In this document: piece after piece, positions 23,088 to 26,152 of the stretch
Position numbering within the stretch: the first letter of the stretch is position 1
How the letters are laid out: each line of letters starts with the position of its first letter
Source: Desulfomarina profundi
GTDB taxonomy: Bacteria > Desulfobacterota > Desulfobulbia > Desulfobulbales > Desulfocapsaceae
NCBI RefSeq assembly: GCF_019703855.1
Contig: NZ_AP024086.1
Span: forward strand, 3,926,501-3,990,500
DNA: 64,000 bases
Direction of reading: 5' to 3'
Position numbers and translations under genes: made by a program
Notes under the pieces: model-generated
The model's database searches: none
What the model was told of the DNA's origin: nothing
Seen by the model: the letters and a program-made list of their open reading frames with translations, nothing else

Positions 23088-24016
23088 ATGATAACCATTG
23101 GATCAAGAAAAAGTAAGCTTGCCATGTGGCAGACGTTGACAGTGGCAGAGGCACTGAATGAAAGCGGCATGGAAACACGGATTAACAGTATGGAAACCCG
23201 GGGAGACAGGATTCTCGATGTTTCCATTGCAAAAATAGGCAGTAAGGGGGTTTTTACTGAAGAGCTGGAGGAACAGCTCGCATCGGGAACAACGGATATT
23301 GCTGTCCATAGTGCCAAGGACATGCAGTCCCGCCTGCCGGATGGATTTGCCCTTATAGCCTTTACAAAGAGGGAAAAAGTCAATGATGTTCTGGTGAGCA
23401 GAGATGGGACTATTGATCTTGAGGATTCATCACGCCCTGTGAGAATCGGGACTTCTTCGGTGAGGAGAAAAGCCCTGTTGCGTCATTACTATCCCCATGT
23501 GAAGACGGTGGAGATGAGGGGAAATCTCCAGACCAGGATCGGCAAAATGGACAGTGGTGCCTGTGATGCCCTGATGCTCGCTTATGCCGGCGTGAAACGC
23601 ATGGAATATGATGACCTGATTGTTATGGAATTTGATGAAAAAACATTCATCCCTCCCGTCGGTCAGGGATGTATTGCCATCGAGGCATCAACATCCCTGG
23701 ATACTGCGAAACTGAGTCGGGTTCGTGACTGCCTCAATGACGTTGACAGTGAAGTGTGCCTTCTGACTGAACGGGCTTTTTTGAAAAAATTGGAGGGGGC
23801 TGCTCTATACCGGCTTTTGGTCTGGCGGTTCTGGAGGGTAATGAGATTATTCTTCATGCCGGTCTTGCCAGTCTCGATGGACAGCAGATTATCCGCCGAA
23901 AAGAGAGTGGTGCCAGGGAAAATGCTGAAAAGATAGGAAAAAGAGCTGGAGAATATATACTTAAAAATGGGGGTCGGGAAATGCTGGCTGAGATTCGAAG
24001 ACAGCAAAAAGACTGA
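23088..24016 (+). CDS. hemC: Porphobilinogen deaminase (hydroxymethylbilane synthase) HemC, frameshifted as written
   Basis: HemC joins four porphobilinogen units into hydroxymethylbilane for haem, sirohaem and cobalamin. The start MITIGSRKSKLAMWQT, catalytic HSAKDMQ, IGTSSVRRKALL and the FIPPVGQGCIAIEAS segment are all canonical. As written the reading frame breaks at a run of five G (23795-23799), just before the Cys that binds the dipyrromethane cofactor, and the shifted frame ends at 23936. With one extra G the sequence continues LEGGCSIPAFGLAVLEGNE and so on to TGA 24014-24016, giving 309 aa, the normal size, with cofactor Cys239. An essential gene broken this way suggests a sequence error. 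Position and strand fit a link to the cobalamin riboswitch region that follows. Confidence 0.9.
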
Positions 24017-24149
24017 TACAAAAAACAAGTGTTTGTTTTGTATGATTCTGTATTTGCATGATTTATCTGTTATTTGTGTATTTATACTGTCCTGATGATA
24101 ACTCTTTTCTGTTGACTGTAATATAAGAAAGCGATAATCTGAATTGAGT

Positions 24150-24308
24150 CAGGGTGTCGCTTATGTTTGCGACCAAAAGGGAACCCGGTGAAAATCCGGG
24201 ACGGGCCCGCCGCTGTAACCGGGGACGAAAATCGCACAGGCCACTGGATCTGTTTCGGGAAGGCGCGATGATTAGGAAGAGCCGGAAGTCAGAATACCTG
24301 CCTTGATC
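24150..24308 (+). ncRNA. Cobalamin (adenosylcobalamin) riboswitch
   Basis: The aptamer hallmarks occur in order. GGTGAAAATCCGGGACGG (24187-24204) is followed by the CCCGCCGCTGTAAC core (24205-24219). Then come GCCACTGG, the B12-box region (24239-24246), GGGAAGGCGC (24257-24266) and GAGCCGGAAGTCAGAATACC (24279-24298). It lies downstream of hemC on the same strand. A terminator hairpin follows at 24374, so the switch probably acts by transcription attenuation on the next genes. An ACAAGT/ACTTGT inverted repeat (from 24314) between aptamer and terminator may be part of the switching helix. Confidence 0.95.
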
Positions 24309-24373
24309 ATTTTACAAGTGCCCCGGGTTTGGGAATACTTGTTATCGTCTTGTATCTGTGGTGAAATCAGGGC

Positions 24374-24410
24374 CCCCGGATCAGAAACTGGTTCGGGGAT
24401 TTTTATTTTC
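24374..24410 (+). terminator. Terminator of the cobalamin riboswitch
   Basis: An 11-bp stem CCCCGGATCAG / CTGGTTCGGGG (24374-24384, 24388-24398) with two G-U wobbles and loop AAA is followed by ATTTTTATTTT. It lies 38 nt upstream of the next start codon and is the probable expression platform. Confidence 0.85.
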
Positions 24411-24447
24411 CGGACCTTGTCCTGGAAATACAACTCTGGAGGAAATC

Positions 24448-24594
24448 ATGGATAGGAAGGAATGGGCATATGCAAAACAGGCCGCCCTGTCTGCAAAAGA
24501 CTGGGATATTTTTCAGGCAATTATCAGAAACTGCAGAAAACTGTTGCATCCACCTCTCCGGCAGGTTGCCGTTGGGGGAGGAAAACGAGGGTAA
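24448..24594 (+). CDS. Small 48-aa protein between the riboswitch and the transporter gene
   Basis: 48 aa starting MDRKEWAYAKQAALSAKDWD. It is preceded by a strong GGAGGA at 24438-24443, 4 nt before the ATG, the best ribosome site between the riboswitch terminator and the transporter. The peptide is basic at its C-terminus (VGGGKRG), has no membrane segment and no motif I recognise. It ends 15 bp before the GTG of the DMT transporter, so it is either a small co-expressed protein or a coupled leader ORF. I cannot tell which. Confidence 0.55.
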   Translation: MDRKEWAYAKQAALSAKDWDIFQAIIRNCRKLLHPPLRQVAVGGGKRG

Positions 24595-24609
24595 GGAGCT
24601 CAAGGGCGT

Positions 24610-25503
24610 GTGACAAAATCCCGATTACAGGAACTGCTTCCGGTACTGGCCCTGTTACTGGCCATGGTGCTTTGGGCCAGTTCTTTTATTGCTCTGAAGA
24701 TTGCTTTTGTGGAGTATGATCCTGTAGTTGTGATTTTCGGGCGTATGCTGGTGGCAACACTTTGTTTTCTCCTGGTGGGCAAACGTCTTGCACGTTCACT
24801 GGATTATCGTGCCGGGGATTACAGGCTCATTCTCTTCATGGCATTCTGTGAGCCATGTCTCTATTTTATTTTTGAAGCAAAGGCTGTCGAAAATACTACA
24901 GCCTCACAGGCAGGCATGATTACGGCCATGCTGCCTGTTCTGGTGATGGTGGCAGCATCACTCATCCTGAAGGAAAAAGTGAGCTGGAGAGGATGGCTTG
25001 GAGCCCTGGTTGCTGTGACGGGAGTCTGCTGGCTGACCCTGGAATCGTCCCCGTCCTCTGATGCACCAAATCCTGTCCTGGGCAACTTTCTGGAGTTCAT
25101 GGCCATGGTCTGTGCCACGGGTTATACCATTGCCCTGAAACGTCTGACCAGCCGCTATTCTCCTTTTCTGCTCACTGCAGTTCAGGCACTTGTGGGCAGT
25201 TTCTTTTATTTTCCACTGCTTTTTCTGCCGGGAACGGTCATGCCGAGTGCCTTTCATCTGTCTTCGGCTCTGGCCATAGTATACTTGGGGGCGGTCATCA
25301 CTCTCGGGGCATACGGTCTGTATAACTATGCCGTGAAATATGTTCCTGCCAGCAGGGCTACACTGTATGTCAATCTCATCCCTGTGTATACCGTCATACT
25401 GAGCTGGATGATACTCGGGGAAACCTTTTCATTGACTCAATGTGTTGCAGCTCTGGTAATAATCGGCGGTGTTTATATCAGCCAGGTAAAAAACAACACC
25501 TGA
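24610..25503 (+). CDS. EamA/DMT-superfamily transporter under cobalamin riboswitch control
   Basis: 297 aa with about ten hydrophobic segments in two EamA repeats; WASSFIALK near residue 22 and GETFSLTQCVAALVIIGGVYIS near the C-terminus are typical of the drug/metabolite transporter superfamily. The start is GTG 24610, with AAGGAG 11 nt upstream. Substrates of EamA proteins are diverse and cannot be read from sequence. The cobalamin riboswitch and terminator 200 bp upstream are the strongest clue: expression should fall when B12 is abundant, which suggests uptake of a corrinoid, a lower-ligand base, or another nutrient spared by a B12-dependent pathway. This is inference. Confidence 0.9.
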   Translation: MTKSRLQELLPVLALLLAMVLWASSFIALKIAFVEYDPVVVIFGRMLVATLCFLLVGKRLARSLDYRAGDYRLILFMAFCEPCLYFIFEAKAVENTTASQAGMITAMLPVLVMVAASLILKEKVSWRGWLGALVAVTGVCWLTLESSPSSDAPNPVLGNFLEFMAMVCATGYTIALKRLTSRYSPFLLTAVQALVGSFFYFPLLFLPGTVMPSAFHLSSALAIVYLGAVITLGAYGLYNYAVKYVPASRATLYVNLIPVYTVILSWMILGETFSLTQCVAALVIIGGVYISQVKNNT

Positions 25504-25519
25504 ATATCTTCCTGATTTT

Positions 25520-26152
25520 TTATTCCGCCCCTGTCTCAATACCTTTTCTGGTTTCCACGTCAAGAGCCAAAGCCTGTGCGAACCGATCAAACCATTGTCT
25601 CTCTTCCGGAGTGTCAATGGGTACAGATTGTACTGCCAGGGTATACATGGCCTTGCAGACGGCAGGGTCTGCAATGTTCTCTGCCAGTTCTTCAACGGAT
25701 TTCGGGTTGCGCATCTGTTCCAGAAGAAAGTCATTTTCTTCCCAGCTCAGTTCCGCCTTTCCAAATTGATCGAGTATCGCTTTTTTCTCATCTTCATCGA
25801 CAAAGCCATCGGCGTAAGCGGCACTGATTATTACCTGGATCATTCGTATTGCCAGCTCACTGTTATCAAGATTTACTGTCAATTCCCGGGGAGGAACAGG
25901 TGGAGGTGGCGGGCCGGAGCCAGGTGGAGGCGGAGGGGGTGTTGCCTGGGAACTTCCAGGTGGAGGAGGAGGGGGAGGAACCTCTTGCTGTCTGTTTTGA
26001 TCTTTCAAGATTTCAAAAGCGCCAACCCCGAGACCAATTGCTGTCATCAGTCCTCCACTGGAGGCAAGATTTCCCAGCATTGATCCTTTACCCCTGCCGG
26101 AACCGATCACTTCCTGTACGAGTTTTCCAAGGAGTTTTTCTGCATTAAACAT
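25520..26152 (-). CDS. DUF533/TerB-like protein with proline-rich linker
   Basis: 210 aa. The N-terminal 45 residues (FNAEKLLGKLVQEVIGSG, then a Gly-rich GGLMTAIGLGVGAFEI) match YebE/DUF533 proteins. A linker at about 58-90 is almost pure proline with short Gly/Ser breaks. The C-terminal 110 residues form a TerB-like helical domain (IISAAYADGFVDEDEKKAILDQ) with the acidic residues of that fold. Family members are associated with tellurite or envelope stress, but function is undefined. The GGTGG-type DNA repetition at 25890-25980 is simply the proline codons. It is convergent with the DMT gene, 17 bp apart. Confidence 0.82.
   Translation of the reverse strand: MFNAEKLLGKLVQEVIGSGRGKGSMLGNLASSGGLMTAIGLGVGAFEILKDQNRQQEVPPPPPPPGSSQATPPPPPPGSGPPPPPVPPRELTVNLDNSELAIRMIQVIISAAYADGFVDEDEKKAILDQFGKAELSWEENDFLLEQMRNPKSVEELAENIADPAVCKAMYTLAVQSVPIDTPEERQWFDRFAQALALDVETRKGIETGAE

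Follow-up and report, generated by a model that had tools for sequence, protein, structure and literature searches.

A conserved micropeptide gene behind a cobalamin riboswitch in Desulfomarina profundi and other Desulfobulbales

The window analyzed here is a 64-kb stretch of the Desulfomarina profundi genome. In an Rfam scan of the window, the cobalamin riboswitch (RF00174) was the only family to score above its cut-off. The aptamer is located at 24135-24319 on the + strand and is full length; it matches positions 1-189 of the 189-position model with 119.9 bits (E-value 1.6e-29), and the curated cut-off is 31.5 bits. It is followed on the same strand by an intrinsic terminator (24374-24409), consisting of the hairpin CCCCGGATCAGAAACTGGTTCGGGG (24374-24398; an 11-pair stem with seven G-C pairs) and a T-run. 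The Shine-Dalgarno sequence GGAGG (24438-24442, + strand) lies 5 nt ahead of an ATG at 24448, which opens a 48-aa ORF (24448-24594, + strand). The + strand gene behind it (24610-25503) has a GTG start and encodes a 297-aa transporter of the EamA/DMT family; its likely Shine-Dalgarno sequence, AAGGAG (24593-24598, + strand), overlaps the stop codon of the small ORF. The transporter matched PF00892 over two stretches, the EamA repeats, with 168.9 bits against a cut-off of 28.2 (E-value 9e-50). The original prediction of a full B12 aptamer and a terminator ahead of a 48-aa ORF and an EamA gene was thus confirmed in all four parts. A gene for a DUF533 protein with proline-rich runs (25520-26152, - strand) is convergent with the transporter gene.

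The terminator at 24374-24409 places an expression platform between the aptamer and the first gene, and we take it to be the platform of a predicted OFF switch. A terminator scan of the window by itself performed near chance, with three terminators found versus 1.8 in shuffled sequences. In the homologous loci described below, a hairpin with a T-run was found 5' of the small ORF in 60 of 76 in a rough scan run without a shuffled control, and a few of these hairpins look non-equivalent. The sole + strand promoter-like site in the scan is located 5' of the terminator.

The small ORF was compared with its homologues from other genomes. An alignment of 40 rows, trimmed by hand to 31 residues, shows a core of about 30 residues (codons 1-31, 24448-24540) that is nearly gapless: gaps are confined to one residue near the start in two rows and to the last column in five. 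Two positions, M1 and Q23, never vary in this alignment; E5, K10, D18, W19, D20, and R27 are conserved at 90% or more, and KDWDxFQ forms the conserved motif of the core. The tail behind the core is variable. The coding test used 76 of the 80 loci (L052, L105, L106, and L143 were left out), and the same 76 loci were used in the neighbor search. In 29 disjoint pairs the pN/pS of the core was 0.21 (95% interval 0.16-0.25), versus 1.27 and 1.33 in the other two frames, and 296 of the 508 differences fell on third codon positions of frame 0. Past codon 31, a rough, ungapped comparison of the tailed groups gave higher ratios, about 0.66-1.0. A Shine-Dalgarno-like motif precedes 74 of the 76 homologue starts versus 841 of 7159 other ATGs (11.7%) in the same loci. 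The core of the micropeptide is under purifying selection.

The 48-aa ORF of the window matched no Pfam family and lacks the chelatase domain PF06180. Among 40 members of the family, one had a Pfam match at an E-value of 0.13 and nothing was significant; NCBIfam gave no match to any of them, and the best match in a profile search against the PDB (E-value 0.13, over short stretches) was not significant. AlphaFold predicts a single helix over residues 3-33 with low confidence (mean pLDDT 66). Amphipathicity exceeded that of shuffled sequences in residues 18-30 (z = 6.3) and not in residues 2-17 (z = -1.2).

A search with the peptide alone had matches in 22 of 58 relatives, and a profile search found the peptide in 106 of the 257 genomes of the order. 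With a broader profile of the core, this number rose to 114 of 257 genomes in 38 of 69 genera, nearly always with one copy per genome. Named carriers include Desulfopila sp. IMCC35006, Desulfofustis, Desulfocapsa, and Desulfoprunum benzoelyticum, the last of which NCBI places in the Desulfobulbales. The occurrence in 114 genomes, together with the codon-level selection, makes the 48-aa ORF more than a chance ORF. The core profile did not find the peptide in 143 of the 257 genomes, nor in 74 of the 148 of good quality; B12 metabolism within the order can therefore do without the peptide. Among 395 genomes of the phylum, matches at E <= 1e-4 occurred in six, all of which belong to this order (16 of its members are among the genomes listed), and none occurred outside it. 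The plasmids yielded no match to the peptide.

The peptide searches were run without reference to the riboswitch. RNA families were sought in 100 peptide loci, which come from 98 genomes, in five batches of 20, one of which held the weakest peptide matches. RF00174 was above its cut-off in 97 of the 100 loci (20, 19, 19, 20, and 19 per batch, with 19 in the batch of weakest matches). One of the three exceptions (L097) has a 30.4-bit RF00174 match at 1659-2130, just below the cut-off, and its aptamer carries a long insertion; the other two (L128 and L202) are cut off by a contig edge. Measured in 74 loci, the riboswitch shares the strand of the peptide and precedes its ATG by a median of 136 nt (range 72-429 nt). 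Two loci (L126 and L149) each contain three cobalamin riboswitches within about 2 kb on one strand.

The original prediction saw the transporter as the target of the riboswitch. Part of this stands for D. profundi itself: the transporter gene starts 15 nt 3' of the small ORF, the window scan found neither a terminator nor a promoter-like site on the + strand between the two, and B12-repressed expression of the transporter is therefore plausible here. The search for a promoter between the terminator and the transporter also came back empty, and because the sole + strand promoter-like site precedes the terminator, the gene is probably on the riboswitch transcript and co-transcribed with the small ORF in this genome. 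The part of the claim that did not hold is the conservation of the pair in related genomes. We collected transporter orthologues with E-values below 1e-70 from 26 genomes, each with about 1.5 kb of upstream sequence (934 nt in L012 and only 19 nt in L025). RF00174 was found upstream in three of these 26 loci (three of 20 and none of six in the two sets), all from the genus of D. profundi. The idea of the transporter as a conserved target of the riboswitch was dropped on this synteny; the conserved product behind the riboswitch is the 48-aa ORF, not the DMT transporter.

The spacing between the peptide and the transporter gene is about 0.1 kb in genome G001 and 0.8-0.9 kb in G003. In G005 and G006, the two genes are on separate contigs; the contigs of G006 end close by, 35 nt behind the peptide and 934 nt before the transporter gene, so that the two may still be linked in that genome. 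We examined a hairpin 3' of the peptide in G001, G003, and G006 as a candidate terminator and rejected it, as no + strand T-run follows. We also rejected the EamA genes 5' of the riboswitch in L050 and L058 as the same transporter; they share about 24-26% identity with it and belong to a different subgroup. The transporter next to the peptide in D. profundi looks like a local addition.

The genes surrounding the peptide homologues fall into several types. A TonB-dependent receptor gene lies directly 3' of the peptide in 15 of the 76 loci, several of which also have ExbB, ExbD, TonB, or BtuF-type genes downstream. In 12 of these 15 loci, the stop codon of the peptide overlaps a possible start codon of the receptor (ATGA in seven, TGATG in four, and TTGA in one). 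In six of the 80 loci, five from family f6 and one from f1, the core is fused in frame to CbiK. PF06180 was confirmed in all four of the fusions that were scanned, and the other two were assigned by resemblance. Read by eye, three fusions (L047, L052, and L100) contain no ATG between the core and a signal-like segment, and the other three (L105, L106, and L109) have an internal ATG at which a separate start is possible. In L123, L126, and L149, CbiK has a gene of its own, 1.6-2.1 kb downstream of the start of the peptide. Five loci (L054, L103, L104, L108, and L152) encode a ribonucleotide reductase with a TSCPD domain, presumably of the B12-dependent class II, at 0.6-1.1 kb downstream of that start.

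On the 5' side of the riboswitch, hemC is present in 13 of the 76 loci, including the window (23088-24016, + strand; TIGR00212, profile positions 1-235 of 293). The 3' part of the window hemC is in another frame, with the break near 23775-23800 (238 and 83 aa in tblastn); in the 12 other hemC-linked loci, the gene is in one piece according to tblastn. The break is either a sequencing indel or a real lesion.

A mechanical table of gene contexts listed 31 cases in which the first gene behind the peptide is on the opposite strand; some of these may be antisense artefacts, and five loci were short of downstream DNA. We therefore relied on 16 loci from four genera in which the next gene is convergent and homologous within its group. 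By sequence, the convergent gene is FeoB-like in seven of these loci and aminotransferase-like in three; in the remaining six it encodes an Fe-S protein. In a rough scan, a terminator follows the peptide in all six loci of the Fe-S group and in none of the seven of the FeoB group. The FeoB-like gene (L131-L134 and L145-L147) is convergent with the riboswitch and the peptide and ends 61-121 nt from the latter; because no terminator was found behind the peptide, antisense read-through is possible in these seven loci. In several genera the peptide seems, from its gene neighborhoods, to be the sole gene behind the switch. The coding test was repeated with the 16 convergent loci alone, 14 of which were used in seven disjoint pairs. 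The pN/pS of the core was 0.20 (0.12-0.30), versus 1.29 and 1.97 in the other frames; it was 0.24 in the TonB-receptor operons and 0.21 in the hemC-linked loci.

The D. profundi genome contains nine cobalamin riboswitches, including the one under study. The other eight precede genes for CbiK, a tetrapyrrole methylase, a TonB-dependent receptor together with a periplasmic binding protein, a DUF3450 protein (beyond which an ExbB-like frame was read by eye), a two-piece protein of the ThiC family, NrdD, and a glycosyl-transferase-3 family protein; one has no evident gene. CbiK and the TonB receptor of this genome thus stand behind other riboswitches, and no peptide was found there. This CbiK, encoded elsewhere in the genome, has a signal-like N-terminus by eye and carries no peptide extension. 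The ThiC-family gene (L064:1317-2656) is split into two overlapping ORFs of 105 and 341 aa and is possibly involved in lower-ligand synthesis. The riboswitch without an evident gene (L061:891-1078; C1:4125890-4126077) has a terminator-like hairpin and faces a convergent 882-aa ORF, which we read as aconitase-like. The anaerobic ribonucleotide reductase NrdD (L065:8122-10245) behind a cobalamin riboswitch would fit, by analogy, the logic of B12-independent isozymes reported for other deltaproteobacteria; B12 elements upstream of NrdDG are described for D. vulgaris and Desulfuromonas in an excerpt of PMC545781. For D. psychrophila, the same excerpt gives one B12 element before cbiK-cbiL and mentions no small ORF.

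Riboswitch-controlled small ORFs have precedents in Mycobacterium tuberculosis and Clostridioides difficile, to judge from partial texts of the respective papers. B12 riboswitches of M. tuberculosis control translated uORFs that act in cis, one of them through an AUGA overlap (PMC11260477, in part). Like these uORFs (uPPE2 and uMetE), the peptide is encoded by a short ORF at a B12 riboswitch, and most of the TonB-receptor operons have a stop/start overlap comparable to the AUGA; going by the description in that partial text, uPPE2 and uMetE act in cis on the next gene, whereas the core described here has kept its amino-acid sequence across an order and in several contexts. The Mbox riboswitch of M. 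tuberculosis directly controls rv1805A, a highly conserved small uORF whose role is given as unclear and which has a homologue elsewhere (PMC12810186, in the part available). The direct target of the riboswitch is thus a conserved small ORF in both cases; in contrast to the peptide, rv1805A is described in that part as responding to magnesium, standing before the pe20 operon, and having a homologue outside riboswitch control. In C. difficile, c-di-GMP-I riboswitches control 58-aa small proteins (PMC11477304, excerpt). These share with the peptide the riboswitch control and the lack of a known domain, and as described in the excerpt they differ in ligand and phylum.

Further comparisons concern known protein systems. 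Periplasmic CbiK is a sirohydrochlorin cobaltochelatase (PF06180), and in the six fusion loci the core forms an N-terminal extension of it, ahead of a signal-peptide-like segment; unlike CbiK, the ORF of the window has no chelatase domain. Uptake operons that encode TonB receptors, ExbBD, TonB, and BtuF-type proteins behind B12 riboswitches share the riboswitch class with the peptide, which is their first gene in 15 of 76 loci; the peptide is not confined to them, and in the window it stands without such an operon. The gene downstream of it there belongs to the EamA/DMT transporters (PF00892), and its link to the riboswitch was found in one genus only. Among the titles and abstract openings searched, none named a B12-linked peptide family of this kind in the Desulfobulbales.

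We weighed several explanations for the conservation of the ORF. It could be a cis-acting leader or uORF whose translation matters for the next gene through coupling or re-initiation, with the stand-alone copies as relics. The stop/start overlaps in 12 of the 15 TonB-receptor loci point in this direction, as does the ppe2 riboswitch of M. tuberculosis: according to the partial text of PMC11260477, PPE2 expression depends there on a translated uORF that is under riboswitch control and has an AUGA overlap. A same-strand gene close behind the ORF, as a cis-acting uORF implies, is present at the window copy, with the transporter gene 15 nt away; it is not a property of the whole family, in which 16 loci have a convergent gene next and 15 of 76 a TonB receptor. 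Moreover, the constraint is on the amino-acid sequence rather than on the frame alone, is equally strong (0.20) where the next gene is convergent, and concerns a core that stands ahead of different genes and is fused to CbiK; we regard a cis-acting role as unlikely. That the transporter is the meaningful target, moving a corrinoid, a lower-ligand base, or a metabolite spared by B12, fits with the 15-nt gap free of + strand terminators and promoter-like sites, and with the transporter lying downstream in G001 and G003 as well. The riboswitch in just three of the 26 orthologue loci speaks against it, as does a database match that is general to EamA, with no NCBIfam model above its cut-off, and we consider this reading very unlikely.

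Where the next gene is convergent, the riboswitch could control that gene (the FeoB-like one, for instance) by antisense action, with the peptide secondary. A survey that, in the part available, reports many antisense-acting riboswitches and a tendency toward this in the cobalamin family (PMC9943018) would favor such a role, as would the short distance (61-121 nt) to the FeoB-like genes with no terminator found between. But the convergent genes differ among genera, the Fe-S group has its terminators behind the peptide in six of six loci, and the codon-level constraint, the operons, and the fusions would be left unexplained, which makes antisense control highly improbable. The peptide might also be a relic, left over from the N-terminal extension of CbiK once the enzyme domain had been lost; the five fusions in f6 and the one in f1 could be cited for this. 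Relics decay, yet the unfused copies are constrained; fusions make up only six of 80 loci, and the unfused forms occur in more families, so that such an origin has little probability. Riboswitch-derived sRNAs exist in other bacteria, and many of the units here seem to contain the ORF alone, as they would if the locus yielded a regulatory RNA in which the ORF is incidental. With most differences at third codon positions of frame 0 (296 of 508), a Shine-Dalgarno-like motif in 74 of 76 loci, and a core that is nearly gapless from the start codon onward, this is barely conceivable.

The best reading, to which we assign a probability of about 0.6, is a B12-repressed micropeptide that would act in trans on the acquisition of corrinoids or cobalt. 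The riboswitch would be a transcriptional OFF switch, a direction that we infer from the arrangement of aptamer and terminator: with ample cobalamin the terminator would form, and with scarce B12 transcription would continue into the small gene, so that the micropeptide is expected to be made under B12 shortage. Its functional unit would be the first 30 or so residues, with the KDWDxFQ motif and the amphipathic C-terminal half. Because the amino-acid sequence is conserved even at loci that lack a following same-strand gene, we favor action in trans, most likely at the cell envelope. The fusion to CbiK and the leading position in TonB-receptor operons suggest corrinoid or cobalt acquisition at the envelope, and periplasmic CbiK, the TonB-dependent receptor, and the micropeptide may all serve one process; this link to uptake is drawn from gene context. 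In D. profundi, the transporter directly behind the peptide would probably be co-expressed with it.

A more specific proposal, for which we see slightly less than even odds, is a riboswitch-to-micropeptide relay: an order-wide, B12-repressed family of micropeptides of about 30 residues that, as the apparent sole output of the riboswitch in several genera, would switch corrinoid or cobalt acquisition, or the B12-starved state, in trans at the protein level. No relay of this kind for vitamin B12 turned up in the literature searched.

The results also correct the annotation of this locus, where it would be tempting to name the DMT protein a B12 transporter. The content of a riboswitch regulon is commonly deduced from the large gene that follows the switch; at these loci, what is conserved is a peptide with a core of about 30 residues. 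Should this peptide work in trans, vitamin B12 homeostasis in the Desulfobulbales would gain a protein-level layer, and the family would provide a clear test case for micropeptides controlled by riboswitches.
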